A DNA stretch of 53,104 nt, taken from IMG/VR virus record IMGVR_UViG_3300031787_000166, positions 1 through 53,104 of that record; one strand, 5' to 3'. Shown here one piece after another: positions 1,131-52,655 of the stretch. Source of the stretch: a virus. Under the pieces are notes generated by a model that was not told where the DNA came from, did no database searches, and saw only the letters and a program-made list of their open reading frames with translations. Position 1 is the stretch's first letter. Every line of letters starts with the position of its first letter. The translations under genes and the position numbers were made by a program.

Positions 1131-1207
1131 CCTCCCCTTGACGGGGGAGGCGAGGGTTTCCTCCACCTCGCCCCTGCTGCCCGACCCACGGGCAGTGGGG
1201 GTTTTCC
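1131..1207 (+). terminator. Tandem terminator hairpins containing one CCCCCACTG site
   Basis: The first hairpin is CCTCCCC (1131-1137) with GGGGAGG (1144-1150). The second is CTGCCCG (1177-1183) with CGGGCAG (1189-1195), followed by TGGGGGTTTTCCTTT. The second hairpin overlaps a CAGTGGGGG site (1193-1201). The T-rich end supports a terminator after the 762-1109 gene. Confidence 0.65.
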
Positions 1208-1213
1208 TTTCAC

Positions 1214-1243
1214 GATTGCCGCGAAGCACGGTGCGCGGCAATC
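1214..1243. promoter_or_regulatory. Perfect 10-bp inverted repeat, possible operator or leader hairpin
   Basis: GATTGCCGCG (1214-1223) and CGCGGCAATC (1234-1243) are exact inverted repeats around a 10-nt centre, 30 bp before the ATG at 1273. No T-run follows, so it is unlikely to be a terminator. It could be an operator or an mRNA leader structure controlling the next gene. Confidence 0.55.
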
Positions 1244-1272
1244 CCAAACCAATCCCGTGCCGAGACACAGCA

Positions 1273-1869: not shown

Positions 1870-1885
1870 CTCACCGCCCATGTCT

Positions 1886-1925: not shown

Positions 1926-1946
1926 ATTCACCCACTGGACAACACA

Positions 1947-2198: not shown

Positions 2199-2207
2199 GG
2201 GAAACCC

Positions 2208-4772: not shown

Positions 4773-5470
4773 ACTCCCCCCGATTCCTCCACCGCGGCGC
4801 CTCCTACCCCCTGCTCACGTGGACCAGCACGATGGATTGCTGGTCGTGGTCCCTGCCTGCCGGCAAGGACGGCTCGTGCCCGATGGAGTCCCGCGCGCCG
4901 GGCTCCATCTGCAACTCGTGCTACGCGCAGCAGAACCGCTACCGCTTCTCCAACGTCCGCAACGCACAGGCCGCCCGCCTCTCCTTCCTGAAGGAGTCGC
5001 CCTATGCCTGCGAGTGGGCACTCACCACCTTCCTTCAGGAGGAGCGCCCCATCTACTTCCGTGTCCACGACAGCGGCGACTTCCACACCATCGACGCCAT
5101 CCGCATGTGGACCCGCATCTGCACCGCCGCACCCGACACCAACTTCTGGTTCCCGACCCGCGGTTGGATCTTCCCCCACTGGTTGCCCGCCCTGCAGAAG
5201 CTCAACGAGCTGCCGCATGTCAGCGTCCGTCCGTCGGCCATCCACTTCGGCGACGCCCCGCCCTTCGGGCTCGGGCTCTCCGCCGGCACGATGTCCGCCG
5301 CCGAGCACCCGTTCTCCGTCATGTCCTGCCCCAAGTCCGTGAAACACACGACCTGCCTCACCGAGTCGTGCCGCCGCTGTTGGTCCAAGGACACCGCCGT
5401 CAACTACCTGCCCCACGGACGCCTTCTTCCCGACCGACCCGTGCCCCTCACCATCGGAGCCACTTCTTGA
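4769..5470 (+). CDS. GP88-like protein with cysteine motifs
   Basis: 233 aa, GTG start overlapping the previous stop (GTGA). The pattern LPAGKDGSCPM...CNSCYAQQNRYRF, then YFRVHDSGDFHTIDAIRMW and FWFPTRGW, is what I associate with the mycobacteriophage gp88 family (SCP..C..CYA and 'R.HDSGDF'). A Cys cluster near residues 32-51 and more Cys near the C-terminus (VMSCPK, CLTESCRRCW) suggest a bound metal or iron-sulfur centre. Function is unknown; the Cys pattern resembles radical-SAM-like phage proteins, but I do not see a clear CxxxCxxC. A CCCCCACTG site lies inside at 5173. Confidence 0.7.
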   Translation: MNSPRFLHRGASYPLLTWTSTMDCWSWSLPAGKDGSCPMESRAPGSICNSCYAQQNRYRFSNVRNAQAARLSFLKESPYACEWALTTFLQEERPIYFRVHDSGDFHTIDAIRMWTRICTAAPDTNFWFPTRGWIFPHWLPALQKLNELPHVSVRPSAIHFGDAPPFGLGLSAGTMSAAEHPFSVMSCPKSVKHTTCLTESCRRCWSKDTAVNYLPHGRLLPDRPVPLTIGATS

Positions 5471-6841: not shown

Positions 6842-6862
6842 CCGCCCCCACTGGAACCACAC

Positions 6863-9462: not shown

Positions 9463-11434
9463 CATCGAGACCTATGGCATCACACGATTCACCCCCACTG
9501 GGCGGCTCTTGCCCGAGCAGACCGTCTTCCACCCCGCCCGCTCCACGGATTCCGATGGGGTACTACGTGGTGACCTCATCGCCACCGTCGCTGTTACCGT
9601 TGCCCGAGCCGACGGTCCTCTTCATACCCTTGAGCCCGGCCCAACGTTCATTTTTGAAATGGGTAAGGCGTCCGCCCGATCCCACCTGGCCCGATGGCTC
9701 TCGCATGCTCAGGTCATCCTGGGAATGAACCTGCAGTTCGACCTGCTCTACCTCCGCTCCCAGCCCGACTTCCGATTCCACCTTCATTCGCAGACGCTGA
9801 TCGACCTCTCGGTCCTCAACTACCTGCACTCCGAGCTGCGCCCCGAGCGGTCGCTCAAGGCGCTCGGTCCCGTGCTCGGCACCCACGCCTACCCCAAGGA
9901 GCAGCTCGACCGCAGCCGGCGCTACAAGGACGCGCGATCGCCCGAGCTTCACCGCTACAACGCGGCCGACACCCACAACACCCTCCTCGCATGCGCCGAG
10001 CTGGCGCGCCGCATCCGCGCCGACTACCCCGGCACGGCCAAGCTCTCGCCCGAGTGCATCGCCCACTACTCCGACACCATCTGGACCGTGATCCGCATGT
10101 CCGAGGCCGGCGTCCCCATGTCCGTGCCGCGGCTCGAGGAACTGGAGCGCCGCCTCTCCGCCGAGCTCTCCGACCTGTCCACCCAGGGCCTGGTCCACGG
10201 CCTCGTGCTCGAGGGCCCGGGCTCCACCGCCTCCAAGAAATCCCTCATGGAGAAGGCCTGCCTCCACGTCGAGGAGCACCACGACCCGTCCATCCGGTCG
10301 CACCACCTGTTCCAGCTCACCGACAAGAAGCGCGAGATCGCCGTCAACGACGTGAACCGCCAGCTCTTCCTCTCGTTCCCGCTGCCCGAGACCCTCGCCG
10401 CCCCACTCCAAATCCTCGGGCGCCACTCGTCCGTGCAGAAGCTCATCTCCTCGTACACCTGCCCGCTCCTCCGCCACCGCCGCACCGACCCGGACGACCG
10501 CTCCTCCCGCCTCGTGCGCCGACCCAACTCTCCAGTGGGGGTCTCCTATCCCACGTGGTTCGTCACCCCCACTGCCTCGAAGGACGGGTCCGGCGCCGAG
10601 GGCGGCACCCTGCAGGGGCGCATCACCTGCAAGAACTTCCGGCACCAGACCGATCCCGACGAGATCAAGGAGTGCTACGCCAGCCGCTGGCCGCGCGGGC
10701 ACATCGTCGGCTACGACCTGTCGCAGATCGAGATGGTGGTGGCCGGCCTCCTGTCCGGCGACGACGCCCTCTGCTCCGCCTTCTGCGCCGACCCGCCGCT
10801 CGACCTGCACACGGCGCGCGCGACCCAGGTCTTCGGCCCCGCCATCAAGGACGACCCCGACTTCAAGAAGGTGTACCGCCAGGCGTCGAAGGGCGCCAAC
10901 TTCGGGGACCTCTTCCGCGCCGGGGCCCAGACCCTGCAGACCCAGGTGTTCAAGCAGACCGGAGTAGTGATCCCGCTTTCACTGTGCGAGAACATCGTGA
11001 AGACTCGCCCCCTCGTGCGGCCCGGACTGTGGGCGTGGCAGCAGGAGCTGATCCGGTCGACCCGGGAGCGCGGCTACCTCGAGCTCCCGTTCATCGGCCA
11101 GTCCCGGCGCTTCATGGGCGGCGACGCCTACGACATCTCCGAGATCGTGAACATGCCTGTCCAGTGCACGGCGGGCAACGTGCTGCTCCGCATCCAGCAC
11201 CGGCTGGATCGCACCCTTCCCTCGATCAATGCGGCGGCGCCCGACATCCTCATGTTCCTCAACGTGTACGACGCGATCTACTTCGACTGCCGCGACGACC
11301 CCGCCGTCGAGCGCCTCGACGTCCTCTTCCGTGACGCCTTCACCTACGTGACAACGGAGGGCTACTGGGCTAGACTGTGCGCACTTCACTCCCGAACCAT
11401 CCCGATACGCTATGAGCGCACCATCTACACCTGA
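9368..11434 (+). CDS. Family A DNA polymerase with 3'-5' proofreading exonuclease
   Basis: 688 aa. Exonuclease motifs are complete: ExoI LDIETYG (D32, E34), ExoII GMNLQFDLLYL (N121, D125), ExoIII YNAADTHNT (Y198, D202). Polymerase motif A is GYDLSQIEMVVAG (D450), motif B RQASKGANFG (R504, K508, F512), motif C LNVYDAIYFD (D635). Compared with Pol I, the Arg after SQIE is replaced (SQIEMV) and motif C is VYDA instead of VHDE. No 5'-3' exonuclease domain. The ATG at 9368 is the only start upstream of ExoI in this frame, so the gene overlaps the glycosylase-fold gene by 95 nt through a low-complexity Pro/Ser linker. It is the phage replicase. Confidence 0.93.
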   Translation: MSTSSSPPSAATPRPRPNPTSSRPDPRTISLDIETYGITRFTPTGRLLPEQTVFHPARSTDSDGVLRGDLIATVAVTVARADGPLHTLEPGPTFIFEMGKASARSHLARWLSHAQVILGMNLQFDLLYLRSQPDFRFHLHSQTLIDLSVLNYLHSELRPERSLKALGPVLGTHAYPKEQLDRSRRYKDARSPELHRYNAADTHNTLLACAELARRIRADYPGTAKLSPECIAHYSDTIWTVIRMSEAGVPMSVPRLEELERRLSAELSDLSTQGLVHGLVLEGPGSTASKKSLMEKACLHVEEHHDPSIRSHHLFQLTDKKREIAVNDVNRQLFLSFPLPETLAAPLQILGRHSSVQKLISSYTCPLLRHRRTDPDDRSSRLVRRPNSPVGVSYPTWFVTPTASKDGSGAEGGTLQGRITCKNFRHQTDPDEIKECYASRWPRGHIVGYDLSQIEMVVAGLLSGDDALCSAFCADPPLDLHTARATQVFGPAIKDDPDFKKVYRQASKGANFGDLFRAGAQTLQTQVFKQTGVVIPLSLCENIVKTRPLVRPGLWAWQQELIRSTRERGYLELPFIGQSRRFMGGDAYDISEIVNMPVQCTAGNVLLRIQHRLDRTLPSINAAAPDILMFLNVYDAIYFDCRDDPAVERLDVLFRDAFTYVTTEGYWARLCALHSRTIPIRYERTIYT

Positions 11435-11437: not shown

Positions 11438-11737
11438 ATGCCTAAGATCCCTGACAACCACCGCAAGGTCATCGCACTGCTTCGCCGCGGGCACAACGCA
11501 GCCGAGGTAGCCGAGCACGTAGGCCTGTCCCGCAAGCGCGTGTTCGACCTCGCGCGCCGGCACACCCTGCCCACCAACCCGCACGTCAAGCCGAACGGCC
11601 GGATCGAGAAGCAGATCGTTCGCGCCTCCCGGGTCCTCACCATCCCCGAGATCTCGGCCGCCTTCCGTCTCGCCGAACCCCGTGTCCGCGAGATCCTCAC
11701 CCGGATCGACCGCCAGACCAAGGCCGCCCTCGCTTGA
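11438..11737 (+). CDS. Small helix-turn-helix DNA-binding protein
   Basis: 99 aa, basic. Two HTH-like units: HNAAEVAEHVGLSRKRVFDL (about residues 19-38) and LTIPEISAAFRLAEPRVREI (about 67-86), like homeodomain-type or resolvase HTHs without a catalytic domain. It lies between polymerase and nuclease and its stop overlaps the TTG start of the nuclease gene. It may be a regulator or a replication accessory DNA-binding protein. Confidence 0.75.
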   Translation: MPKIPDNHRKVIALLRRGHNAAEVAEHVGLSRKRVFDLARRHTLPTNPHVKPNGRIEKQIVRASRVLTIPEISAAFRLAEPRVREILTRIDRQTKAALA

Positions 11738-12282
11738 AGCGCAGCTGGACCATCCTCCAGGACGACCGGGAAAAGACCCCCCTCCTCTTCCCGGCCAACA
11801 TGGTCATGCTCGACGACGCCCACATCCCTTGCGATCGCCGGTCCTGCACCATTTCACTTACGGTCACCAAGAAACGCTTACCAACCGGCGACTACGCCCT
11901 AGAAGGCTTTGAGTCCAAGGTCTTGATCGAGCGCAAGAAGGACCTGCCCGAGCTCTTCGCGAACCTGCTGACCCCCACTGGTCGCGAGCGATTCGTCAAG
12001 GCCTGCGACCGGCTGAGATCGGAATGCACCCATCCGATACTCATTCTCGAAGGGACCGTCGGCCACCTGGTCAGGATGGCCAAGCCTCGACTCGACGTGG
12101 ATCCATGGCTGGTGGTCGACGCCCTTCACCGAATCTGCCTTGAACGCCGCATCCAAATCCTCTACCTTCCCGCAGCAACCCCCGACCAGCGCCGATCAGT
12201 GGGGGAGGAAGTCGCAAGACTGCTGATCAACGGAGCGATCACCCATGCCGAACCGCCCTCTCCAAACGTTCCGAGCAGTTGA
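11734..12282 (+). CDS. ERCC4-domain nuclease
   Basis: 182 aa, TTG start overlapping the previous stop (TTGA). The XPF/ERCC4 nuclease signature is present: DDREKTP at residues 10-16, then LPTGDYALEGFESKVLIERK with GDY (52-54), ERK (66-68) and a downstream Asp (70), then RFVKACDRLR. Such stand-alone nucleases cut branched DNA. With the polymerase, the annealing ATPase and the PD-(D/E)XK exonuclease it fits recombination-dependent replication or resolution of branches before packaging. Two CCCCCACTG sites lie inside (11972, 12197). Confidence 0.85.
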   Translation: MKRSWTILQDDREKTPLLFPANMVMLDDAHIPCDRRSCTISLTVTKKRLPTGDYALEGFESKVLIERKKDLPELFANLLTPTGRERFVKACDRLRSECTHPILILEGTVGHLVRMAKPRLDVDPWLVVDALHRICLERRIQILYLPAATPDQRRSVGEEVARLLINGAITHAEPPSPNVPSS

Positions 12283-13849: not shown

Positions 13850-14359
13850 GTGCTCAACCGCAGCCGTGATCCCCGGGACCACGTAGGGTTCCTCACGCTG
13901 TGGGTGGGAGAGGCGCACCGAGCGCAGCGGTTCCCCAAGTGGGAGCGCGACGAGCTGCTGTCCGAAGCCTACATCCAGGCCGACCGCCTGCTCACCTCGG
14001 TCTACGACCCCGAGCGATCGACCGTCGTCACGTTCCTCAAGCGCTTCCTGCCCGGCGCCGTGCACTACCGCTACTGGACCTCGAACGGATTCCGTTTCAC
14101 CCCCACTGGTCCCCGCTTGAAACTGCACGTTACATCTGATACACTTTGTGAAGTGGTGGCCCCGTCGCCGCCGCCCTCCTCGTTCCAGCTGCCCGACCTG
14201 AGCGAGGAGGAATGGATCATCGTCAGGCTCAGGCTCGATGGATACACCATGTCGCGGATCGCATCCGTGCTGGGGCTGCGTTCGCCCCAGTCCATCTACA
14301 ACAGGATCGTCAAGATCAAGGACAAGTTTCATGGAGAATCCCACACCGATGCCGGTTGA
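13850..14359 (+). CDS. Sigma-factor-like transcription regulator
   Basis: 169 aa, GTG start after GAGGCGG. The N-terminal part (DELLSEAYIQADRLLTSVYD, about 34-53, followed by PERSTVVTFLKRFL) resembles sigma region 2 ('DL.Q...L.....YDP.....F..Y'). The C-terminal part (LSEEEWIIVRLRLDGYTMSR, about 117-136, then IASVLGLRS) resembles a sigma region 4 HTH. A plausible role is redirecting host RNA polymerase to late promoters, since no phage RNA polymerase is seen. It overlaps the next gene by 29 nt. A CCCCCACTG site (14100) lies in the linker. Confidence 0.7.
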   Translation: MLNRSRDPRDHVGFLTLWVGEAHRAQRFPKWERDELLSEAYIQADRLLTSVYDPERSTVVTFLKRFLPGAVHYRYWTSNGFRFTPTGPRLKLHVTSDTLCEVVAPSPPPSSFQLPDLSEEEWIIVRLRLDGYTMSRIASVLGLRSPQSIYNRIVKIKDKFHGESHTDAG

Positions 14360-15746
14360 CCACGGAAGGTCGGCCCGCCTCTACCTCGAGACGGAGGGCC
14401 TCGTCGCCCGCATCCCGTCCATCCGTTCGTCCGACTACTCGTCCGCCCTGTCCGACCCGTTCGGCTACTACCTCCGCCGCCGGCTCGGGCTCACGCCCGC
14501 GCTCATGTACTCGGAGGCCCTCTCGCGGGGCTCATACTTCCACACGCTCTTCGCGCTCTACGACCGCGACGACCGATGGAAGATGTTCCGTGCGCAGTGC
14601 GCGTCCCGTCTCGAGGAACTCAACACCCTGTGCCGCGACCTCTCGTTCACCGAGGCCACCCGCGCCGAGGCGGTGCAGAACGAGCAGATCGACCAGGCGA
14701 CGGCGGCCGCATGGTTCGCCGCGTTCGAGAACCTGCCCTGCCTCGACGGCGGGTCCGCGGCCAAGTGGCTCTTGGGCTACGAGAAGCTGGGCGCCGAGCT
14801 CCGCTTCACGTGGGTGGACGAGCGCACGCCCAAGACCCGTCAGGTCGCGCAGTTCGACCTGCTCCTCCTCAACCGCGACACCAACACCCTGTGGATCGTG
14901 GACGCGAAGACGACCGCCTCGCCCCCACTGATCCGGCTGGCCACGGTCAAGCACGAGTTCCAGACGCAGCACTACCTTCACGCGCTCGAGTGGTTCCTGC
15001 AGCGCGGGCTCCTGCACAAGAGGTACCCGACCCTGCCCAAGAACGTGCGCATCGGCGGCATGATGCACGTCGCCGTGCTCAAGCCCTCGATCCAGTTCGG
15101 GCAGTCCGACCGCGACTTCCACTGGGAATCCGAAGGCAAGCGCACTGGCGTGGCCGGCCGCATCATCCGCACCCCTGTCAACCTGCGCGACCAGGGCACA
15201 CACGTGATCCAGTGGACGGCGAACCAGCCCTACGCCGAGCCGTTCTGCGGCACCGTCGACGAGTGCCTCGCCGAACTGCACGAGCGCACGGGCAAGAAGC
15301 CGGAGAAAGCGTACACCGGCGAACCCTCGCTTCACAACTTTACAAGTCGGTGTCTCCGATGGTACAAGGGCGAGGCCGAGTACATCGACCGGGCGCCCGA
15401 CTTCGTCAACGATCCCCCCATCAACATTTCCTACACGCATGCGTCGGTCATGCTTGACAGGGACTGGCGCAACGACTATCTTTCCCGTGTTGCCATGATC
15501 TACAACTTGGCAACCCTTGAGGCAAACCCATGCAACTTCCTGAAGAACATCGACTCGATCCGAATGGGCGCCAAGCTGGCGCAGTACAGTCCCTTCTACC
15601 TGACGGAGCCGAAGGAGTGGCCGGCGCTGGTGAACAGCAGGCAGTTCCTCGTGGCGCATCGCGACGCCGGCGATCTTCCGGCGATTCCGGAACCGCACGA
15701 GTTCGACGGTCTCGTGGAAAGTCTCGAACCCGCGCCCCAAGTCTGA
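14331..15746 (+). CDS. PD-(D/E)XK (RecB/Cas4-type) exonuclease
   Basis: 471 aa from the ATG at 14331 (AAGGA upstream; ATG 14349 is an alternative). The nuclease core is clear: RGSYFHTL (H71), then GAELRF (E156), QVAQFD (D176), LWIVDAKTTA (D191, K193) and FQTQHYLHAL (Q211/Y215, the QxxxY motif). This is the arrangement of RecB/AddB/Cas4-type exonucleases. Next to a Sak4-like ATPase it is likely the exonuclease half of a phage recombination pair. The long C-terminal region (about 230-471) is not assigned; I see no conserved four-Cys Fe-S cluster. Confidence 0.85.
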   Translation: MENPTPMPVDHGRSARLYLETEGLVARIPSIRSSDYSSALSDPFGYYLRRRLGLTPALMYSEALSRGSYFHTLFALYDRDDRWKMFRAQCASRLEELNTLCRDLSFTEATRAEAVQNEQIDQATAAAWFAAFENLPCLDGGSAAKWLLGYEKLGAELRFTWVDERTPKTRQVAQFDLLLLNRDTNTLWIVDAKTTASPPLIRLATVKHEFQTQHYLHALEWFLQRGLLHKRYPTLPKNVRIGGMMHVAVLKPSIQFGQSDRDFHWESEGKRTGVAGRIIRTPVNLRDQGTHVIQWTANQPYAEPFCGTVDECLAELHERTGKKPEKAYTGEPSLHNFTSRCLRWYKGEAEYIDRAPDFVNDPPINISYTHASVMLDRDWRNDYLSRVAMIYNLATLEANPCNFLKNIDSIRMGAKLAQYSPFYLTEPKEWPALVNSRQFLVAHRDAGDLPAIPEPHEFDGLVESLEPAPQV

Positions 15747-17609: not shown

Positions 17610-17634
17610 CAGGCTGACGAAACCCCCACTGAGC

Positions 17635-17675
17635 GAGGGGGTGGGACCCACAAGTTCCACCCCCTCTTCCTTTCC
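17635..17675 (+). terminator. Strong Rho-independent terminator
   Basis: GAGGGGGTGG (17635-17644) pairs perfectly with CCACCCCCTC (17657-17666), followed by TTCCTTTCC. A CCCCCACTG site (17623-17631) lies just upstream. A second small hairpin, CCTCC/GGAGG (17674-17689), follows. Confidence 0.85.
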
Positions 17676-38203: not shown

Positions 38204-39118
38204 TCAGATTGCGGATTCAGACGGTGACGATGCGGCTGCCCGCGCGATCGTGTCGGCCGCGAACTCCTTGACCTGCGCCTCGAGGGCGCTGAAGTCGGTT
38301 CCGGGCTTCCACTCGGGCTCGGGCACGGGCTTCGACTTGAGGATCTCCTGCGCGTCCAGTCCGTCTGCTGTTTCCGACGTCCGACCGAGACGGTCGAGAT
38401 CGCCGATTACCGAACGGAAGGTTCCCACGACAGGCTCCACGGCCTTGCCCACCTCCTCCTCCATCCACGCATCCTCGAAGGTGCCGGCCTGGCTCCGTCG
38501 GCTCTGCATGCGCTCGAGCGCCTGGCGCTCCAGCTGCCCACGCAGCGTCGTCTCGGCCTGCCGGACCCCCTCGTCTCCGCGGAGGGACTTGGCGGCTTCC
38601 AGAAGTCTCTGCACTTCCGGGTTCTTTTTCATCGTGTTCTCGAGCGCGCGATTCAGATTGTCGCGCAGTTCGCGCACACGCATGCGGTGAAGTTCGGCCC
38701 GCTGGGCCTCGAGCTGTTCCTGAAGTTGCTGGGTCATGTCGTCCTCTTGGGTTCCCCCACTGGGCTGTTCGTCTTCGAGTCCCGGCAGTTCGATCTCCTC
38801 GATCTCGTCCTCGGAGCCGGTGCCTCCGGGCGAATCGTCCTCGTACACGGGTGGTTTCTCGGCCCCTGCGCTGGTCGCCTGGATGTAGGCTTCGATCTGC
38901 GCGTCGTCGTAGCCCTGCGTCCGAAGAGTCCGGCGCACGGCCTCGCGTCGCGCCTCGGGCTCGATGTCGCTGCGGAACAGAAGCCCGACGTTGTCGAGCT
39001 CTTCGCGCAGCTCCTCGGCGTAGGCCTTCTGATCGTCGAGCTCCTTGCGCGCCGCAAGAAGTTCTCCGAGCGTGGTGGTCGTTCCGTCTTCGAGCGTGAT
39101 CTTTGTGTTTGGGTCCAT
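38204..39118 (-). CDS. Scaffolding protein
   Basis: 304 aa, very acidic and helical. N-terminal segment (ITLEDGTTTTLGELLAARKE), acidic low-complexity region (GGTGSEDEIEEIELPGLEDE), long coiled coil (QLQEQLEAQRAELHRMRVRE), and a basic/amphipathic C-terminus. Length, charge and position between portal and capsid are those of T7-like scaffolds (about 300 aa). It would direct capsid assembly and be absent from the mature head. Confidence 0.8.
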   Translation of the reverse strand: MDPNTKITLEDGTTTTLGELLAARKELDDQKAYAEELREELDNVGLLFRSDIEPEARREAVRRTLRTQGYDDAQIEAYIQATSAGAEKPPVYEDDSPGGTGSEDEIEEIELPGLEDEQPSGGTQEDDMTQQLQEQLEAQRAELHRMRVRELRDNLNRALENTMKKNPEVQRLLEAAKSLRGDEGVRQAETTLRGQLERQALERMQSRRSQAGTFEDAWMEEEVGKAVEPVVGTFRSVIGDLDRLGRTSETADGLDAQEILKSKPVPEPEWKPGTDFSALEAQVKEFAADTIARAAASSPSESAI

Positions 39119-39127: not shown

Positions 39128-41137
39128 TTACATGAGGGGCATGGCGGGTTGAGGGGCAGGTGCCCCGCCCTGCATGGACCCCATCTGGGCCATCTGCTGG
39201 TCCAGTTTCGACAGCATAGCCATATCGTCAGGATTGGGAAGGGCGTTCGGAAGTACCAATCCCATGAAGCCCACCAGCGTCTTGTGGTACTCGATGAAGG
39301 CGTTCTGCACGGATGCCTCCGCGAGCGCCATGATCGGGCTGGCCATGAACGAGTTGAGGACGCGGATCTGGAACTCGGGCTTGACGGTCTGCGGAGTCAG
39401 GATCAGCTGACCCGGGCTCTTGCCGTCGCCGTAGAGGAGGAGGCAGTTGCGCACCACGGACTCGTAGGCGCTCTGATGCTCGTCCGACCACATCGCGAAG
39501 TCGAGACCCTCCTTCAAGGCGAAGAGCATGAAGGTATCGGGGTCGATCTGGAACTGCTGCTGGAGCTGGAGCGCCTCCTGCTTGCGCGCGACCTTGGACC
39601 GCGGGTTGATGTCCCTGATCTTGAAGGAGAGCTGAGACAGGGACGGCAGCGGGTTCGTCTCGAACGAGACCGCCATCGTCTCGGGATCCACCACGACGCC
39701 CGCAAGGTCGAGCGTCAGCTGGTCCACCGTGAAGGTGCGAGGGCTGAAGACGACCTCGCGCACGGCGCCCGAAAGCACCGACCGGTAGGCGTCGCCCCAC
39801 GCCTGCTGCACCCCTGCAGTGGGGGTGTTCATCGCGCGGTTCACCTGCTCGTCGAGGAACTGCAGGCCTGTGGCCGAATCAACCCGCCCCTTCTCAGCAA
39901 GGAGATCGCGGATCGGATTGAGACGGTCGATCTGCTGTACGGCGAACGAACTGACTTTGCCGGGGACGTCGCCGCTCGTGAACGGCGTGATGTTGAACGG
40001 CCTGAAGCCTTCGCTGATCGGATCGGGCTCCCACGGGAAGACGCGCAGTCCTTGGCCAACGTCTCGCAGCATTGTGTTCGAGTTGAAGGAGCCGTGCGGC
40101 AGCACGAGGACGCCGTACTTGTCGATGTCGCGGATGTTCTGGAACAGGGACTTCTGCAGGCGCTCGGCCTCGCGGCACAGCGAGAAGAGAAGGTCGAACA
40201 CGCCGGCGCCGTGGAAGGAGCCGTTCTCCATGAAACGCGCGAAGCCGATCGGGCAGTAGACCTCGCGCCCATCGAACGACTCGTCGTGCAGGGTGCATTC
40301 GCCGCTCGTCACGATGTAGCGTTCGACCGTGTCGCGCGGGCCCTTCAGCCAAAGCTCGCGCACCCTCACGACCTGCTGCGCCTCCTTGTCCGAGTCGTAG
40401 AGCGCCATGCGATCGTCCGAGTAGGTGACCTGGGAACCGAGCGTGTACTCGTTCGCGGTCTGCTGCTCGTAGGACTCGCCCGGCTTGATCGTGTAGTACT
40501 CGATGCGGTCCTTGTTGCGCGTCACCTTCGAGCCGAACTTCTCCTTGAGGTACTCCATGGAGACCATGCGCTGGCGCAGGAGGCCGCGCTGCTTGGTGTA
40601 GTCGTGCACGAGGCTCGGAAACGGGAACAGCTCCATCGGGTGCACGACCTCGAGGTCCGCGGTGAGGCCGACCGTCGGGTGATTCACCATGTGCCCGGTG
40701 ATCCCGCAGGAGCCGAGGAGGGTGAAGAGGTGGTTGAACTGCGGCACCACGCGCTGGAGCTGGTGCTCCGAGACCACCTGATCCAGCATGATCTGTGCGA
40801 TCGATCGCTGCCGGATCGAGCTCAGCGAGGAGCCGACTCGCTGCACGAGCGGCCTGAAGTCAAGGCTGCTCAGGCGCCCCGAGATCTGGTCTACCGCCTT
40901 CAGCAGCTCCGCCGACTGGAACTCCAGGCGATCCTGCTCGTCCAGGTACGAGTACCGCACCGTCCCACTCTCCGGGTCGAACACGTCGAACTGCCTCGCC
41001 CCCTGCAGGTAGTACAGGGCCACCAGCCATGTCGCCCGCCGGTACGACAGCCGGTTCGTCTCCCGCTCCACGTGGGCGTCGATGATCCGGGCCAGCGCCA
41101 TCGGGTCCTTCGTGAGCTTGATCGGATCGGTTGCCAT
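39128..41137 (-). CDS. Portal protein (head-tail connector)
   Basis: 669 aa with AAAGG before the ATG. Long helical stem and wing segments (LSYRRATWLVALYYLQGARQ; NRLNPIRDLLAEKGRVDSAT; AWGDAYRSVLSGAVREVVF) and a C-terminal Met/Gln/Pro-rich tail (QMAQMGSMQGGAPAPQPAMP). Its place between large terminase and scaffold and its size fit podovirus portals, forming the dodecameric DNA gate. Confidence 0.85.
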   Translation of the reverse strand: MATDPIKLTKDPMALARIIDAHVERETNRLSYRRATWLVALYYLQGARQFDVFDPESGTVRYSYLDEQDRLEFQSAELLKAVDQISGRLSSLDFRPLVQRVGSSLSSIRQRSIAQIMLDQVVSEHQLQRVVPQFNHLFTLLGSCGITGHMVNHPTVGLTADLEVVHPMELFPFPSLVHDYTKQRGLLRQRMVSMEYLKEKFGSKVTRNKDRIEYYTIKPGESYEQQTANEYTLGSQVTYSDDRMALYDSDKEAQQVVRVRELWLKGPRDTVERYIVTSGECTLHDESFDGREVYCPIGFARFMENGSFHGAGVFDLLFSLCREAERLQKSLFQNIRDIDKYGVLVLPHGSFNSNTMLRDVGQGLRVFPWEPDPISEGFRPFNITPFTSGDVPGKVSSFAVQQIDRLNPIRDLLAEKGRVDSATGLQFLDEQVNRAMNTPTAGVQQAWGDAYRSVLSGAVREVVFSPRTFTVDQLTLDLAGVVVDPETMAVSFETNPLPSLSQLSFKIRDINPRSKVARKQEALQLQQQFQIDPDTFMLFALKEGLDFAMWSDEHQSAYESVVRNCLLLYGDGKSPGQLILTPQTVKPEFQIRVLNSFMASPIMALAEASVQNAFIEYHKTLVGFMGLVLPNALPNPDDMAMLSKLDQQMAQMGSMQGGAPAPQPAMPLM

Positions 41138-41480
41138 TGGTTGCCTTTCTTGCCGCGTACCCTCCCGGGATCATGCGGATTCGTTCCTTCGTCGGAGCAT
41201 ACTGCTTGACCGCTTCCTGCGCGGGCAGGGCTCCCTCGTGGAAACCCCCACTGGAGCCGACGGACGCATGCCGCGGCCCGTTGCCGTAGTAGGCCAGGCA
41301 GAGGATCCCTAGCCAAGCATCAGAGACGGTAACGGTCGCGCCCACCGCGCCGCCCAGTGGGGGTTCCTTGACGTCGGTTCCGCCAAAGTACCAGCGGGCC
41401 ATGGCCTCGAACAGCCCGATCGGGATGCGGGTTTCAGATCTTGGAGCCGGGGGATCGCTGGACGGTCGGGGTTCGTGCAT
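40860..41480 (-). CDS. Doubtful ORF between terminase and portal
   Basis: 206 aa. The gap between terminase stop (41434) and portal start (41137) is about 300 nt and is open in this frame. Residues 27-100 look protein-like (MARWYFGGTDVKEPPLGG; VSDAWLGILCLAYYGNGP), but no stop occurs until 278 nt inside the portal gene, where the sequence looks like shadow coding. It could be a real small gene with a long overlap, one with a sequencing frameshift, or noncoding. Two CCCCCACTG sites (41245, 41355) in opposite orientation lie within it. Confidence 0.3.
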   Translation of the reverse strand: MHEPRPSSDPPAPRSETRIPIGLFEAMARWYFGGTDVKEPPLGGAVGATVTVSDAWLGILCLAYYGNGPRHASVGSSGGFHEGALPAQEAVKQYAPTKERIRMIPGGYAARKATNGNRSDQAHEGPDGAGPDHRRPRGAGDEPAVVPAGDMAGGPVLPAGGEAVRRVRPGEWDGAVLVPGRAGSPGVPVGGAAEGGRPDLGAPEQP

Positions 41481-43398
41481 CGAGAATCTCGTTGATCTGT
41501 TCGGCGGTCAGCTGGTTGAGGTCGAGTCCTTCGCCGATGTGGACCCCGTTTTCGTAGAAGTTGCCGTCCCGCAGGCGCTCGAACAGGGTCTTGTCGGATG
41601 GCGCGCCGGGCGTCTTGGATAGGCGGCCGCGCAGGACGAACTGGGACATGGCGACTGCATCGATGCAGTCGTCCTTCTCGAGTCCCCCGTCGGGCGCCTC
41701 GGGGTTGAAGGACTCGATCTGGTCGAAGAGGTGGCGCCACGGGAGCATCTCGCGCCGCCACAGGGGCAGCTTGATCTTGCCGTGCTCGAAACGGAAGCCA
41801 AGGGCGGCGATCTTGTCCGTCTTCTCGGCCATGCCTGGGTTCAGCTTGACGATCTTGGGCAGGTGCTCGGTGCCCGCCATGTCGCGCGCGCGCGTGGACA
41901 CGATCGAGTTCAGGGAGTTGTAGAGGGAGACGCCCTCGCGGATCGACTCGGGGTGGACCGTGGGGCAGCGCCATCGGTCGGCCATCTCAAAGACCGCTTT
42001 CACCTGGACGGTCTCCTTGGTCTGCTGGGCCCAGAGGTCAAGGACGAAGAGGTCGTTCTGGGGAGTCACCGCCATGAGGCAGGCCACTTTGAAGTCAGAG
42101 TCGGTGGTGGCCGTGTGCGAGGTGTCCGCCGTCATAAAGAGGCGGGCGTACTTCGTAAGGAAGTCAGGCAGCGGCATCTTGATCCGGTGCGTCTCGCCTT
42201 CACGCAGCTCGTTCCAGCAGATGTTGGCCTTGGTCTGGAGCGGCTGGTCGATTTTGTCGTCGATTTCCTCGAGCGTCCAGCCGTGGCGGTGCTCGTCAAG
42301 GGTGCCGAAGAAGGCGCCGTGGCCGTCGCCCGGGGAGGCCATGTATTCGGAGGCGAAGTTTGATTCGCCGATCGTCTCGCGGATCTCCTCGAGCGACATG
42401 GACTCGGCGAACCGCGAGTTGTCCACGGCGAGGAGCAGGCGGTCGCTCTTGGTGGCGGGCCACATGTCCGGCCAGCAGGACACGATGCGTCCATTCTCCT
42501 CGAGCGCGGCGGGGATCACCAGGCGCGCCCAGCGGTTGAAGCGCGGGTCCTTCGCGCGCAGGCCCTCGGGGGTCTCCTCGAGCTGCATGGCATGCCACAG
42601 GTAGTGGCGCTTCGACACGAAGGTGCCGACCCAGTCGACGCCGGTGTCCGGGCGCGTGACCATCGGGATCACGATCTTGAAGAGGAGCTCGTCCATGTAG
42701 GAGCGGAGCACCGACATCGCCGTGGTGGCCTTGGGATCGTACTCGGGGTCGTCGAGCCGGTATCGGCGCGGACGTCCGCCGCGCTGCTTCGACGACGCGC
42801 TCAGGAACCGGATCCACGAGCTGTTGGCGAGGACCATGTGCTCCGTGCTGAAGGAGCCCTCGCCGCGCCGCGGCACGATGCGGTCGCCGTCGAACTCGGA
42901 CGAGAAGTCGTCGATGATGCGGGAGTTGTGGATGAACTGCCGCTTGAGCCGCTCGCCGACCTCGCGCGTGTTCGGGTGGCTCGACGTGGCGTAGACGAAG
43001 GAGTAGGCCGGCCGCGTCAGCAGGCGGAGCAGCATGTCCTTGCAGTTGAGGTAGCTCTTGGCCGAGCCGCGCGGCGCAACGCTCGCCGTGAGGCGATACG
43101 CGGCCCACTGGCGCGCGAGCACCCAGTGAAAGTCGGGCGTCTCAAGCGGAGTGTCGTCGTAGAACAGCGGATTGAAGTCCGCGTCCTGATCCGGCATCAG
43201 GTAGTAGCGATCGAAGAACCAGAGGGACGAGACAAGGTTGTCGCCGCGCTCCTCGGGATCTTTCGTGGGCAGCGACCAGAGGCAGCAGGCGTTGACGCGG
43301 GCCTGGCGCTGGCCGTCGGCGGTCAGCGTGTCGTAGTCGGCCGGCAGCGGGTGCAGGTCGTTTCCTTCGGCGCGGGTAGCGATGCGCTTCGGGTCCAT
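41434..43398 (-). CDS. Terminase large subunit
   Basis: 654 aa from the ATG at 43398 (TGATG with the upstream stop). ATPase: Walker A-like VAPRGSAKS (about 107-115), of the RGxAKS type seen in T7-like terminases, and a Walker B-like RRYRLDDPEYD (D216/D217). Nuclease: first Asp in LFMTADTSH (D425), later acidic motif EKDDCIDAVAMSQF near 590. It packages DNA through the portal. The open frame runs to 43518 but that part is a shadow. Confidence 0.92.
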   Translation of the reverse strand: MDPKRIATRAEGNDLHPLPADYDTLTADGQRQARVNACCLWSLPTKDPEERGDNLVSSLWFFDRYYLMPDQDADFNPLFYDDTPLETPDFHWVLARQWAAYRLTASVAPRGSAKSYLNCKDMLLRLLTRPAYSFVYATSSHPNTREVGERLKRQFIHNSRIIDDFSSEFDGDRIVPRRGEGSFSTEHMVLANSSWIRFLSASSKQRGGRPRRYRLDDPEYDPKATTAMSVLRSYMDELLFKIVIPMVTRPDTGVDWVGTFVSKRHYLWHAMQLEETPEGLRAKDPRFNRWARLVIPAALEENGRIVSCWPDMWPATKSDRLLLAVDNSRFAESMSLEEIRETIGESNFASEYMASPGDGHGAFFGTLDEHRHGWTLEEIDDKIDQPLQTKANICWNELREGETHRIKMPLPDFLTKYARLFMTADTSHTATTDSDFKVACLMAVTPQNDLFVLDLWAQQTKETVQVKAVFEMADRWRCPTVHPESIREGVSLYNSLNSIVSTRARDMAGTEHLPKIVKLNPGMAEKTDKIAALGFRFEHGKIKLPLWRREMLPWRHLFDQIESFNPEAPDGGLEKDDCIDAVAMSQFVLRGRLSKTPGAPSDKTLFERLRDGNFYENGVHIGEGLDLNQLTAEQINEILDARTPTVQRSPGSKI

Positions 43399-43820
43399 CA
43401 ACCCCCACTGGTCACGAGGAGGTGGGCGGCGGCCAGAATGCAGAGGCCGGCCATCATCTCGGCGGGGTTCTCGGTGGCGGGGCTCATGCGGTGCAGCCTC
43501 GAGGCGATGCGCACCCACTTCGGCTTGAAGCGGTTCTCGTGCACGAGTTCGGCGCGGATCGCGGCCCCGAAGGAAGAGGCGCCTCCGACGGCGCGGTCGA
43601 GGTCGATCACGCCCAGGTCCTCGTAGACGTAGGCGCCCCAGGACGCGAAGTCCTCATTCCGCAGCTCGGGGAGGCGGGCCTCCAGCAGATCCAGCGAGCC
43701 CGGTCGGGGGAAGGACTCGGCTTGCGAGGCTTCCGGTGCCGAGAGACTTGAGCCCTCGGACCTGGGAGAGGAGTCTTGATTCGGAACGGGTCTGTTCGAG
43801 AATGTTGCCTTGTTCGTCAT
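43398..43820 (-). CDS. Hypothetical protein upstream of the terminase
   Basis: 140 aa from the ATG at 43820. Ser/Pro-rich N-terminal third, then LDLLEARLPELRNEDFASWG and a C-terminal helix with a hydrophobic end (MMAGLCILAAAHLLVTSG). It overlaps the gene at 43654-44088 by 167 nt, so its true start may be internal. It may be a small packaging component; no family recognised. Confidence 0.5.
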   Translation of the reverse strand: MTNKATFSNRPVPNQDSSPRSEGSSLSAPEASQAESFPRPGSLDLLEARLPELRNEDFASWGAYVYEDLGVIDLDRAVGGASSFGAAIRAELVHENRFKPKWVRIASRLHRMSPATENPAEMMAGLCILAAAHLLVTSGG

Positions 43821-48638: not shown

Positions 48639-48887
48639 TCAGCACTTCCATGCCCGGAGGCTCTTGTTGATGCGGGAGTTCGGATCGGACGCGGTCTTCT
48701 TGGACGTGAGCTTCTTCTTCATGCCCTGCATCCGGGCGCAGAAGCTGTCGCGCCTAGGTCCGCCCTCCGGCTGCGGCGCCTTGAGGTTCGAGCCCGTGGC
48801 TCGGTTGTAGGCGGAGCGGCCCGCCGCGTTGAGACCCCCACTGGGATCGCGGTGCTCGGCCTTGAAGTCGAAGCGCTTCTTCGCCAT
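48639..48887 (-). CDS. DUF6321-like small phage protein
   Basis: 82 aa from the ATG at 48887 (TGATG with upstream stop). The pattern DPSGGLNAAGRSAYNRATG...SFCARMQGMKKKLTSKKTA...DPNSRINKSLRAWKC is the one I associate with DUF6321, a small basic family common in environmental phages; function unknown. CCCCCACTG site at 48835. Confidence 0.75.
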   Translation of the reverse strand: MAKKRFDFKAEHRDPSGGLNAAGRSAYNRATGSNLKAPQPEGGPRRDSFCARMQGMKKKLTSKKTASDPNSRINKSLRAWKC

Positions 48888-49018: not shown

Positions 49019-49029
49019 GTCAGGACTCC

Positions 49030-49596: not shown

Positions 49597-49597
49597 G

Positions 49598-50071
49598 TCA
49601 GGGTTCCTCGTGGCAGTGGGGGTTCAGGAGGCCGAGCATGCGGCGGCCGGCGTCCTTGAGTTCTTCGGCGGTGCGGGCCTCGAGCTCGACGCCGTCCATG
49701 ATGCGCACCTTGTTGATCTCCTCGACAAGCATCGGAAGATTCTGCTGGATGTACTCGAGGGACAGCTTGTTCGTGAGGTGCTTTCCGCGGCGGCCGCCGA
49801 GGAGCGAGGCAGAGCCGGGCGCGAGGAAGTCCTTCTGCCCGAAGCGCGTCGCGGCCCACAGGCCGATGCGGAACATGTGGATGTTGACGAGCCAGTCGTC
49901 GCCGATCTGGAGGAGCGGCACGTGGATGCTGCGGCAGAAGCGCCGGAACGAGAGAGGATTCATCCCGAGCTCGGAGCAGAAGCGGGACTCGTGCACCCAG
50001 CGCAGGCCGCCGCCCACCGAGAAGGAGAAGGCCTTGTCGCGCGGACGCTTCTTGTAGCCTGGTCTGGTCAT
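49598..50071 (-). CDS. Hypothetical protein
   Basis: 157 aa, ATGA overlap with the upstream gene. N-terminal basic/aromatic region (SFRRFCRSIHVPLLQIGDDW) then helical C-terminus. The first 70 residues could form an excisionase-like winged helix, but this is weak. CCCCCACTG-type site (49614) lies near its end. Confidence 0.6.
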   Translation of the reverse strand: MTRPGYKKRPRDKAFSFSVGGGLRWVHESRFCSELGMNPLSFRRFCRSIHVPLLQIGDDWLVNIHMFRIGLWAATRFGQKDFLAPGSASLLGGRRGKHLTNKLSLEYIQQNLPMLVEEINKVRIMDGVELEARTAEELKDAGRRMLGLLNPHCHEEP

Positions 50072-51189
50072 CGGGATCCGTAGCGTAGCGGAGGCACGAA
50101 GTTCGCGAGGTCCATGAGCTGGCGCTGCGGGGTCTGGCGGAGCGAGCGGCGCGCGGAGCCGATCGGGTCGGCCGGATCGCGGCGCGACGAGTCCCAGAGG
50201 CCGGGATCGTTCGTGGGGTTGCGCGCGACGTCGTCCGCGAGCATCTGCTCGTAGAGCGCGTCGGTGCGCTTCTTCTCCTCGGCGAGGCGCATCTGCCGGC
50301 CGTAGTCGGTGGCCTCGAGGTTGAGTTCGCCAGTGGGGGTGAGAACACCTGCGTCGCGAAGCCGGCCTTCGGGCGTTTCGTTCGTGAAGCGCCGCGGGTC
50401 CTGGTAGACGAAGGGTGCGGCAGGTTCCCGGGGACGGGGAGGGGCGCTAGGCGTGGCAGCCTGGCCGTCGACGTAGACAGGGGATTCGCCGGGGTTCAGG
50501 TAGAACTTGCGGCCTTCGGGCGTTTCGCCGTAGAGAGTGTCTTCGCCGACAAGATTGAGCTGGCTGTATGTGAGGTTGAAGCCTGGGGGTACACCGATGT
50601 AGTCTCCGTCCGTCCTGGGCTCGCGGGGCTTGACAAGTGGGTTGGTTCGTGTAGACTGAGGGGGCGCTGCACGGGATGGACCGGTTGCCAGGGCCCCGGC
50701 TGTGTTGGCTTGGGCCCTGGCCATCCGGGATTCCCGACGCGCCCTGGTATCGGCGAACCGTTCGTAGACCTGCTCGCGGGCCTGCTCGTTCCTTTCGGCC
50801 GTGCGAGTTTCGGCGTCGATACCGGCCAAGGTGTTCCTGAGCCTTTCGTCAGCGCGGCGACGGCTCAGCGGGTTGACTTGATACCCTTGGGATTCGCGCT
50901 GCATGAAGCCGGCGAGTTCGGCTTGATGCGCCTCGCGCGCGGCGACACGACGAAGATCGAAACTAGACGAAGAAGCAGCGACAGGAGCAGGAGCGTAGGG
51001 CTTTGCCCGTCCGGAAGGCGGGGACGTGGTCCCTGCGGATCCGGGCGGTTGCGTCTGTTCCTTTGGTTCGTCCGGCTTCGACGTGTACATAAAGGAAGCT
51101 GGAGCTTGGTCGGCTGCCTTTCGCTTGTCGATGAGTTCCTCTAGGAACGGGTCTGCGCTTGCGAAGCTGTAGTTCGTTGACTTGTACAT
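50068..51189 (-). CDS. Hypothetical disordered protein, first gene of the minus-strand unit
   Basis: 373 aa from the ATG at 51189 (GGAG upstream). Largely disordered, rich in Pro, Arg, Ala, Gln and Glu, with heptad-like helices (ERNEQAREQVYERFADTRAR) and short motifs such as DYIGVPPGFNLTYSQLN and GETPEGRKFYLNPGES. No family recognised. It starts the long virion transcription unit 38 bp from the divergent helicase gene. The frame extends to 51264 inside that gene, which I reject. Confidence 0.65.
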   Translation of the reverse strand: MYKSTNYSFASADPFLEELIDKRKAADQAPASFMYTSKPDEPKEQTQPPGSAGTTSPPSGRAKPYAPAPVAASSSSFDLRRVAAREAHQAELAGFMQRESQGYQVNPLSRRRADERLRNTLAGIDAETRTAERNEQAREQVYERFADTRARRESRMARAQANTAGALATGPSRAAPPQSTRTNPLVKPREPRTDGDYIGVPPGFNLTYSQLNLVGEDTLYGETPEGRKFYLNPGESPVYVDGQAATPSAPPRPREPAAPFVYQDPRRFTNETPEGRLRDAGVLTPTGELNLEATDYGRQMRLAEEKKRTDALYEQMLADDVARNPTNDPGLWDSSRRDPADPIGSARRSLRQTPQRQLMDLANFVPPLRYGSR

Positions 51190-51227
51190 GAAGTTCTCCG
51201 GCGCGTGGCGCCAGTAAGGATAATCAG

Positions 51228-52655
51228 ATGACGCTCGGTACACAACAAAACCCTTTGCGCACAACGGAGCCGATGAAGGTGGCCCGGGCGATGCTCAAGG
51301 TGTGCTTCGAGGACGGGATGGGGCTCAAGGAGGTGCAGGGCCGGCTGTTCGAGTGGTACGGCGGCAGGTGGGTGCAGAGGGACGTGCAGTGGCTGGAGGA
51401 CGCGGTGTGGCGCTGGACCGAGGACTTGCACGTGAGCGACGACCCGAACGGGCTCGTCGTGGAGAGGTATCAGACGAACGAGCACAAGGTGAACGGGGTC
51501 GTGAGGGCTCTTCAGGCCTTGTGCCGCGTGGCTGCGACGGAGGTGCCCCAGTGGCTGGACGCGGGCGCGCGGGGACAGGTGGAGGACCCCCACTGCTGCA
51601 TTGCGTTTCGGGACGTCGTGGTGGACGTGAAGGCCAGCGCGCGCGTGGGGGCGATGGTGTGCGTCCCCCGGGGACCGGAGTGGTTTGATCCGTGCGTCAT
51701 GGACGTGGACTTGGATTCGGACGCCGAGTGCCCGCGGTGGATGCGGTGCCTCGAGGAATGGAGCGGCGGGGACGCCGCGTGGAAGGAGCTGCTGCAGCGG
51801 TGGATGGGGTACTCGCTGATGAGCCACCGGAGGTACGCGAAGTGGATGCTGTTCCACGGGAAGGTGCGCGCTGGCAAGGGCACGATCGGGACGGTGATGC
51901 GGTGGCTCTTGGGCGGAACCGGATTCGTGGGCACCAGTCTTGACGAGCTGGCGGGGAGTTTCGGGCTCGACGGGCTTGAGTTCTCGAGGGTGCTGTGCGT
52001 GAGCGAGGTGAGCGAGCTCGATGGGCGCGAGGGCGAGGTCGCGGTGCGGGTCCTGAAGAACGTGCTGGGCCGCGACCCGATCAGCATCAACGCGAAGTAC
52101 CGGCGGCAAGTCAGGAACGTGGTCGTGAATGCGGCGCCGTGGGTCCAAGCGAACGAGATCCCTCAGTTGCCGAACAAGGGGCGCGGGCTGAGCACGAAGA
52201 TGCTGGTGCTGCCGTTCGAGCGGAGCTTCGAGGGCAAGGAGCAGCACGACCTGATGGACGTGCTGAAGGGCGAGTTGGCCGGGATCGCGGCGTGGGCGCT
52301 CCGGGGCGCCATGAAGCTGGAGGCCGCGGAGGACGGCGACAAGTTTCCCCCCACTGGAAGCGGTGTGCGGGTCGTGCGCGACTACCACCTGACGAACAAC
52401 CCGTTCGACTACTTCCTTGAGGCGCGGTTCGTCCGGAACAAGCAGGGGTTCGTGGCCAACGAGCTCGTGAGGCGCGAGTGGAAGGACTGGTGCAGGGTCA
52501 ATAACGTGAAGATGCACGTCGCGGACAACCAACTTGTCAGGCGCCTGACGAGCGAAAGCAGCTGGGATCTGTGCAAGATCAGGAAAGGTGGCGAAGGTAC
52601 GCGCGGGATCGGGGGTCTTTCGCTGAAGATGGACAAAGACGACGAAGTGGACTGA
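51228..52655 (+). CDS. SF3/D5-like replicative helicase
   Basis: 475 aa, AAGGA (51216-51220) before the ATG. Walker A FHGKVRAGKGTIG (K217), Walker B-like VLCVSEVSE (about 256-263), and motif C-like VVNAAPWVQANEIPQL (about 299-314) fit the P4/D5-type SF3 helicase. C-terminal winged-helix-like part (FDYFLEARFVRN...LVRREWKDWCRVNN). The N-terminal 180 residues resemble the D5_N region, but no primase active site (AEP or TOPRIM) is evident. It unwinds the template for the family A polymerase. Its codons are G-rich where the other plus-strand genes are C-rich. CCCCCACTG sites at 51587 and 52348. Confidence 0.85.
   Translation: MTLGTQQNPLRTTEPMKVARAMLKVCFEDGMGLKEVQGRLFEWYGGRWVQRDVQWLEDAVWRWTEDLHVSDDPNGLVVERYQTNEHKVNGVVRALQALCRVAATEVPQWLDAGARGQVEDPHCCIAFRDVVVDVKASARVGAMVCVPRGPEWFDPCVMDVDLDSDAECPRWMRCLEEWSGGDAAWKELLQRWMGYSLMSHRRYAKWMLFHGKVRAGKGTIGTVMRWLLGGTGFVGTSLDELAGSFGLDGLEFSRVLCVSEVSELDGREGEVAVRVLKNVLGRDPISINAKYRRQVRNVVVNAAPWVQANEIPQLPNKGRGLSTKMLVLPFERSFEGKEQHDLMDVLKGELAGIAAWALRGAMKLEAAEDGDKFPPTGSGVRVVRDYHLTNNPFDYFLEARFVRNKQGFVANELVRREWKDWCRVNNVKMHVADNQLVRRLTSESSWDLCKIRKGGEGTRGIGGLSLKMDKDDEVD

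Follow-up and report, generated by a model that had tools for sequence, protein, structure and literature searches.

We wished to determine what role is played by a 9-bp sequence, CCCCCACTG, that recurs throughout the genome of an uncultivated phage. The sequence analyzed, which we call the window, is the 53,104-nt IMG/VR record IMGVR_UViG_3300031787_000166.

A dispersed 9-bp motif in the window

The original prediction, made from the letters of the sequence, was that CCCCCACTG occurs in 35 exact copies, 23 on the plus strand and 12 on the minus strand, where about one is expected by chance. Our recount was identical and CCCCCACTG is the top over-represented 9-mer of the window, with a density of 0.66 per kb. 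Chance expectation was about 0.3-0.7 copies, with dinucleotide shuffles containing a mean of 0.66 (maximum 3) and a second-order Markov model giving 0.33. A Markov background and a codon-shuffled control had been named beforehand as checks, and both left the motif enriched; coding segments contain 28 copies compared to 1.6 (maximum 6) after synonymous-codon shuffling. Among positions inside genes where the protein sequence permits the motif, 30 of 55 (55%) hold it compared to 3.3% for permuted motifs. Thus, the shuffles, the Markov model, and the use of permuted motifs rule out chance or codon bias as the source of the motif. The copies are listed below, where clade A is the clade of the window and TerL the terminase large subunit.

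1193..1201, minus, intergenic
5173..5181, plus, g11
6845..6853, plus, intergenic, 5' of g15
9492..9500, plus, intergenic, 3' of g21
10533..10541, minus, g22 (PolA)
10566..10574, plus, g22 (PolA), head-to-head with 10533
11972..11980, plus, g24
12197..12205, minus, g24, intact in 6/6 alignable clade-A relatives
14100..14108, plus, g29
14922..14930, plus, g30, intact in 7/7 alignable clade-A relatives
15848..15856, minus, g31
17623..17631, plus, between g33 stop and terminator hairpin, lineage versions nearby in most other clades
17635..17666, plus, terminator hairpin 3' of copy 17623 (folded stretch MFE -40.5 kcal/mol, z -3.1)
17944..17952, plus, g34
19916..19924, plus, g35
20032..20040, plus, g35
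21328..21336, plus, g35
22166..22174, minus, g37
25022..25030, plus, g39
26057..26065, plus, g40
28409..28417, plus, intergenic, g41/g42
28795..28803, minus, g42
30852..30860, minus, g42
31325..31333, plus, g42
34741..34749, plus, g43
35608..35616, minus, g44
38754..38762, plus, g47, intact in 8/9 clade-A relatives
39817..39825, minus, g48 (portal-like), kept or lost depending on the relative, protein sequence conserved there
41245..41253, plus, small gene, TerL-portal interval
41355..41363, minus, small gene, TerL-portal interval
43402..43410, plus, g50/TerL boundary
48835..48843, plus, g57
49614..49622, minus, g60
50331..50339, minus, g61
51587..51595, plus, g62
52348..52356, plus, g62

As predicted, the copies occur in every reading frame and in both orientations relative to genes. 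They had also been placed in gaps and terminators. The first holds, with five extragenic copies (1193, 6845, 9492, 17623, and 28409), and those at 41245 and 41355 are inside a probable small gene between the terminase and portal genes. As for the second, a clear terminator was seen next to the copy at 17623 only, which is just upstream of the hairpin and outside it. Conserved neighbors were observed as described, with an A preceding 24 of 35 copies, a G following 20 of 35, and no conservation farther out; the two copy-poor stretches (1.2-5.2 kb and 43.4-48.8 kb) were likewise confirmed. Tandem or mobile repeats are ruled out by the unrelated flanks of the copies, and an RNA-level signal is ruled out by a motif orientation that is independent of transcription. 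Rfam and tRNA searches of the window gave no matches. Single-mismatch copies are depleted in the window (5 in coding segments, 16 +/- 3.5 expected), and because they are rarer than expected in this genome, recognition of the motif looks all-or-none. Near misses in other clade-A genomes are at roughly background level.

Lineage versions of the motif across a phage family

Enrichment in related phage genomes, another check named with the original prediction, was found. Phages with a TerL identity of at least 74%, which have a GC content of 50-67%, carry the identical motif CCCCCACTG, whereas each more distant lineage has a C-rich version of its own, such as CCCCCACTC, TCCCCCCACT, TTCCCCACTA, TTCCCCGCT, and CCCCACCAGC. 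On the G strand the motif is 5'-CAGTGGGGGT-3', and most lineages have an asymmetric G-rich core, [AG]G[TC]GGGG. Relatives spanning GC 0.37-0.67 carry motifs of like kind, which rules out GC-rich sequence bias as their source. In most lineages one copy is located near the position just past the g33 stop codon, where it has been rewritten in concert to the local version. Different clades also share motif positions within genes (163 coincidences compared to 24 by shifting), although this sharing is partly forced by the amino acid sequence and is not our main evidence. We found that a whole uncultivated phage family carries dozens of copies that change in concert by lineage. The synonymous shuffle and the comparison of related genomes both agree with the earlier claim of selection at the level of the DNA, and there is strong support for maintenance of the motif in this way.

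Searches for close cultured relatives in INPHARED with TerL, portal, and ERCC4 gave no match, nor did a search for plasmid relatives in PLSDB with TerL. Two cultured phages with similarity in the helicase only, Vibrio 1.049.O and Shewanella 1/44, were rejected because they contain clustered repeats rather than a dispersed motif.

Strand specificity and spacing

The motif has a strand bias of approximately 2:1 whatever the gene direction (289:158 across 15 lineages, 11 of 15 having the same sense), and this bias is uniform along the circularly permuted map. In several independent clades, copies on the same strand are spaced more evenly than chance would give; the even spacing is about 2.3 kb on one strand and 4.4 kb on the other. 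The nearest same-strand copy was a median of 1655 bp from permitted positions that are used compared to 947 bp from those that are unused (P = 1e-13), and this effect of same-strand redundancy persisted when each clade was represented by a single genome (P = 6e-5). By contrast, distance to an opposite-strand copy had no effect on the use of permitted positions (P = 0.38 and 0.53). The same-strand effect was absent in clade H when its motif was defined as a 9-mer, and even spacing was lacking in G017 and G037, the two genomes richest in the motif. Conserved pairs of sites in opposite orientation, 7-18 bp apart, also exist.

These data show that the motif is a one-way, all-or-none signal of 8-10 bp that is counted per strand and changes in concert. 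Such per-strand action is compatible with a Chi-like signal, a nick site, or a priming site, and on this ground the Chi-like site and site-specific nick are retained from among the originally proposed roles. Redundancy confined to one strand argues against orientation-blind protein binding and against the stoperator-like repressor site that had also been proposed.

Candidate readers and the role of the motif

The following genes are relevant to how the motif could be read.

11734..12282, plus, g24, single-domain ERCC4/XPF-Hef type nuclease, candidate recognizer
14331..15746, plus, g30, RecB/AddB-type PD-(D/E)XK exonuclease with QxxxY motif, candidate recognizer
16121..17017, plus, g32, Sak4-like recombinase (phrog_124, PF13479)
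17046..17609, plus, g33, co-occurring with Sak4 in nearly all relatives, most distant group excepted
41434..43398, minus, g49, TerL (phrog_38), tree tracks motif
51273..52655, plus, g62, SF3/DUF5906 primase-helicase, C-terminal half

The g30 protein matches the PF12705 (E 1e-10) and phrog_1218 profiles, and the first PDB matches of its AlphaFold model (pLDDT 87) are AddB/AddAB, AdnA, RecE, and RecB. The g24 protein matches PF02732 and Hef (1j22), and its AlphaFold model (pLDDT 94), in which there is no extra DNA-reading domain, best matches XPF and Hef. Its active-site residues (D53, E66-R67-K68) are conserved, and the gene is near-universal in the family, being absent only from fragment records or records that also lack the g24 neighbors. 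No motif occurs inside g33 in any tested genome. Motif divergence tracked gene distance equally well for ERCC4 (rho 0.57), TerL (0.56), and g30 (0.54), and we therefore name no single reader. The motif is tracked somewhat less closely by g62 distances than by those of the nucleases and TerL, and UDG and PolA distances do not track it (rho 0.23 and 0.24). UDG (g21) and PolA (g22) were rejected as readers because they are polyphyletic within clade H, which has a single motif, and g23, g29, g60, and g57 because they are missing from motif-bearing lineages. Sites are avoided in the capsid-like gene g46, where a strong expression-type codon bias removes GGG and, in clade A, lowers CCC. We dropped this avoidance as evidence of a roadblock because the codon bias removes GGG anyway.

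The explanation that we tentatively prefer is that the motif is a Chi-like site private to the phage, serving its own recombination system of exonuclease and Sak4, for which we have candidate readers only. We suggest with similar caution that, across the family, it may be a recombination or self-protection signal read by a phage nuclease, with signal and reader co-evolving into dialects. That the motif is the same at GC 0.50-0.67 and lacks enrichment in a metagenome-assembled genome (MAG) holding a relative is best read as the motif being phage-owned. Also in favor of this explanation are the same-strand redundancy and even spacing, the heavy use of permitted positions, the 2:1 strand bias, the asymmetric G-rich core (which in clade H often includes E. 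coli Chi), the rewriting in concert near one position, and the structural matches and motif tracking of g30. In this model, a nuclease, most likely g30 working with the Sak4 g32 and probably the ERCC4 nuclease g24, would move along or resect one strand and would pause, be modified, or cut upon meeting the signal in one orientation. This would limit end loss and leave a 3' strand that Sak4 could use for recombination and concatemer formation. One signal would cover the stretch until the next same-strand copy, which would lead to even per-strand spacing and indifference to the other strand.

A precedent is the strand-specific pause of lambda exonuclease at GGCGATTCT (PMC7496540). There a phage recombination exonuclease responds strand-specifically to a 9-base sequence, and the link to g30 is by analogy. 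To our knowledge, the lambda genome is not enriched in dispersed copies of this sequence. Several points count against a private Chi. Lambda-type pausing is short and stochastic, and even per-strand spacing would also result from nicking or priming. Recognition of Chi by RecBCD is a task of RecC and not of the nuclease domain (PMC8022716), which counts against g30 as the reader; g30 lacks a helicase or any RecC-like part that could account for the reading of nine bases.

It is also possible, but unlikely, that a phage endonuclease (g24 or the terminase) nicks each copy on one strand late in infection. The motif resembles the localized single-chain interruptions known from T5, phiKMV-like phages, and tf in being an exact, asymmetric, intragenic sequence of about 9 bp with few near misses (PMC3517423) and with variants in relatives, as between tf and LUZ24. 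The strand-specific spacing and the distribution, conserved active site, and motif tracking of g24 are consistent with this. However, all known nick systems, those of T5, phiKMV, and tf included, are confined to one strand (PMC3517423), 14:0 in tf compared to 23:12 in the window, whereas the family motif is on both strands at 2:1 and evenly spaced on each; tf sites lack even spacing. The conserved opposite-orientation sites 7-18 bp apart, if nicked, would risk double-strand breaks. XPF-type nucleases are structure-specific rather than sequence-specific, and the g24 model offers no additional domain for reading DNA.

We consider it improbable that the motif is the Chi of a host RecBCD, AddAB, or AdnAB enzyme, carried against degradation as in T5, P1, and lambdoids without a recombinase. 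Over-representation of host Chi in phages is known (PMC3784561), and the motif shares with Chi, and with Chi-rich lambdoid, T5-like, and P1-like phages, a short, exact, asymmetric, G-rich sequence of 8-10 bases that is oriented, all-or-none, over-represented, dispersed within genes, and polar in its strand bias. Orientation dependence was seen statistically, as redundancy limited to same-strand copies. The clade H motif, GYTGGTGGGG, contains GCTGGTGG, and roughly one half to two thirds of the copies include E. coli Chi, but GCTGGTGG without the following G is rare in this clade. Enrichment in a host genome was not found in the sole putative host, a Myxococcales MAG of uncertain binning that may not be the host. 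A clade-C phage is present in this MAG as three contigs with matching GC; there are 19 copies of the 10-mer in those contigs and two in the other ~3.55 Mb (2.2 expected). One motif across phage GC 0.50-0.67 suggests different hosts. Unlike Chi, the motif version belongs to the phage lineage, spacing is even on each strand, the phages encode their own Sak4 and exonuclease, and density (0.66 per kb in the window) is about 3-fold or more higher than the approximately 0.2 per kb of Chi in lambdoids without a recombinase.

Lagging-strand initiation or priming, with the motif read on single-stranded DNA by a primase or the helicase g62, is somewhat less probable still. It would be consistent with per-strand action, spacing of about 2.3 and 4.4 kb, and a uniform strand bias on a circularly permuted map. 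Against this, there was no primase domain among the scanned proteins, g62 matches only the C-terminal half of primase-helicase profiles, and its distances track the motif less well. Primase sites are 3-5 nt long and do not need enrichment, which also counts against priming.

Binding by a repressor, nucleoid, or packaging protein is very improbable: there are many exact dispersed copies, as with mycobacteriophage stoperators, and clade A encodes helix-turn-helix proteins (g23, g29, and g60), but these are absent from some motif-keeping lineages and duplex binding would ignore orientation, whereas redundancy and even spacing occur within a strand only. Stoperators follow the direction of transcription and are mostly in gaps, and the family motif does neither; its exact recognition and the lack of mutual redundancy between opposite-strand copies also argue against such a site. 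DNA uptake sequences (Neisseria DUS, Haemophilus USS) are similarly dense and short, at about 1 per kb with lineage dialects, but uptake has no known counterpart in a phage, and DUS are not known for strand-specific redundancy. For a packaging signal or a modification target, also raised originally, we found no positive evidence, and no methyltransferase was seen among the window proteins that were scanned.

Chi is normally a property of the host, and a phage has two options, carrying that same sequence or inactivating the enzyme by which it is read. If our preferred explanation of a private Chi is true, a signal owned by the phage, in many natural dialects, would constitute a third strategy, and the family would provide natural motif-enzyme pairs for learning how a nuclease acquires a new 9-base word. 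The question of why certain phages have short motifs at which their genomes are nicked or marked would also become directly testable, because the motif and its candidate readers can be compared in vitro across lineages. The per-strand redundancy test is suited to any phage genome and can separate strand-reading signals from ordinary protein-binding sites.

Abundance of the motif in the window and its relatives

The window, which spans the entire IMG/VR record, contains 35 exact copies of CCCCCACTG, 23 on the plus strand and 12 on the minus strand, compared with 0.66 (maximum 3) in dinucleotide shuffles and 0.33 under a second-order Markov model. This is the most enriched 9-mer in the window. 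Coding sequence holds 28 copies versus 1.6 (maximum 6) in synonymous shuffles that left every protein and the pooled codon usage unchanged, in agreement with the proposal that selection acts on the DNA. The noted conservation of neighboring bases was confirmed, with A before 24 of the 35 copies and G after 20; no conservation was found past these two positions. One-mismatch copies are scarce in the window (5 versus 16 +/- 3.5 in shuffled coding sequence) and close to background in the remaining genomes of clade A, the relatives that share this motif. Recognition thus looks all-or-none. A second, weaker enriched 8-mer, ACTACCTG, has 8 copies in the window and is also enriched in several relatives, including G008.

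Relatives were gathered by terminase and portal searches. All those with at least 74% identity in the large terminase subunit (TerL) are dense in the window's motif, at GC contents of 0.50-0.67, so the anticipated enrichment in related genomes was found. More remote relatives (TerL 42-54%) have a drifted motif among their own top words (CCCCCACTC, TCCCCCCACT, TTCCCCACTA, TTCCCCGCT, CTCCCCCACT and ACCCCTCC). Alignment scans with ERCC4 and helicase added CCCCACCAGC, CCCCCCCAC, GTCCCCCCA, TCCCCCTCC, CCCCCGTCA and others. Read on the G strand, [AG]G[TC]GGGG is common to most lineage motifs. The terminase, portal and ERCC4 proteins all lacked matches in INPHARED, as did the terminase in PLSDB. Clade F genomes (G015, G016) carry a second dispersed motif, CACCGCAGC, with 12 of the 14 copies in G016 on one strand, and in a fragment related to clade F (G042) GAGCACCGCATC (about 15 copies) replaces the CCCC type. 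Contigs of the family (G000, G006, G010, G012 and others) begin at differing genes; the map is therefore circularly permuted, which suggests headful packaging or circular assembly.

Occupancy, spacing and strand

We defined a permitted position as a site whose encoded amino acids admit the motif via synonymous codons. The motif occupies 30 of 55 such positions in the window (55%), versus 3.3% of their own permitted positions for 150 same-letter permutations, and 549 of 1143 in core genes across 11 lineage motifs. In the lineages tested, it was at 0 of 32 chances in the capsid-like gene g46 (window 36467-38176) and 0 of 16 in g33 (17046-17609), which adjoins the Sak4 gene. Strong expression-type codon bias marks both genes, leaving GGG nearly absent and, in clade A, CCC suppressed as well; translation is therefore the simplest reason that they are empty. 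The sequence after g33 includes the following feature:

17635-17666, hairpin terminator 3' of the g33 stop codon

Ahead of this hairpin, genomes of clades A, B, D, E, F and H have one copy of their own lineage motif in the sense orientation about 2-21 nt past the stop codon, a concerted change at a single location. Several other lineages (G017, G024-G027) have a copy 20-60 nt past it, and a few genomes, among them G020 and G028, have none there. At other aligned clade A positions, sites are intact or differ by several mismatches, and single mismatches are rare.

Per-strand spacing was more even than random in several independent lineages, including G009 (CV 0.19 and 0.48 on its strands, both p=0.001), the window's plus strand (CV 0.59, p=0.008), G021 (p=0.001) and G033, with zero gaps under 500 bp versus 6.8 expected. 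The spacing effect was weaker in clade H, and even spacing was absent from G017 and G037, the two genomes richest in the motif. Sites on opposite strands lie as close as 7-18 bp. Used and unused permitted positions were then compared for how far away the nearest other site lay. The median distance to a same-strand site was 1655 bp from used and 947 bp from unused positions (P=1e-13). When each lineage was represented by a single genome, because genomes of one lineage are not independent, the distances were 1810 and 1089 bp (P=6e-5). Opposite-strand distance did not differ between used and unused positions (P=0.38; 0.53 with one genome per lineage). Thus, each copy serves its own strand alone, over a stretch on the kilobase scale. 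Most lineages are biased against the TerL coding strand by about 2:1 (289:158), whichever way the genes run. The spacing, same-strand effect and strand bias argue for a process that reads a strand and against protein binding that is blind to orientation. A nick site would be compatible with per-strand spacing, but known nick systems are confined to a single strand (PMC3517423), and we consider this explanation unlikely.

Candidate readers of the motif

Comparison of metagenomic sequences, on which all evidence rests, shows the motif to be a DNA-level, exact, strand-specific and phage-lineage-specific signal. A Myxococcales MAG contains a clade C phage in three contigs of matching GC (G046 C7, C18, C72); this phage is complete or nearly so, and the MAG is a possible host lead. 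Because AGTGGGGGGA occurs 19 times in the phage contigs and at background in the other ~3.55 Mb (2 copies, 2.2 expected), though binning may be wrong, the host is disfavored as reader, and a host Chi, the oriented signal of RecBCD/AddAB, is rather improbable. The clade H motif GYTGGTGGGG only partly resembles E. coli Chi: GCTGGTGG without the following G is rare in clade H. A lagging-strand priming site seems less probable again.

Near-universal genes of complete genomes encode UDG, PolA, the ERCC4 nuclease g24 (a single XPF/Hef-type nuclease domain), the PD-(D/E)XK nuclease g30, the Sak4-like recombinase g32 and structural proteins. In quick FastTree trees from home-made gene calls, gene distance followed motif distance for g24 (rho 0.57), TerL (0.56) and g30 (0.54); UDG and PolA barely tracked it (0.23 and 0.24) and are exchanged inside the one-motif clade H. 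These two genes (g21 and g22; window 8809-11434) appear to undergo recombinational exchange between lineages sharing other core genes. The small protein g29 (13850-14359), missing in some lineages, has a C-terminal sigma-region-4/LuxR-like helix-turn-helix and, by eye, a stretch resembling sigma region 2; it is possibly a phage sigma factor. Between terminase and portal there appears to be a small conserved gene (41138-41433), which the gene caller overlooked.

The structure model of g30 (pLDDT 87) has AddB nuclease, AdnA, RecE and RecB as top PDB matches. Lambda exonuclease pauses strand-specifically at a 9-base word (PMC7496540), which we take as precedent for a Chi-like signal. We propose, at somewhat less than even confidence, that the motif is such a signal and serves resection and recombination by the phage itself, in which g30 would work with Sak4.
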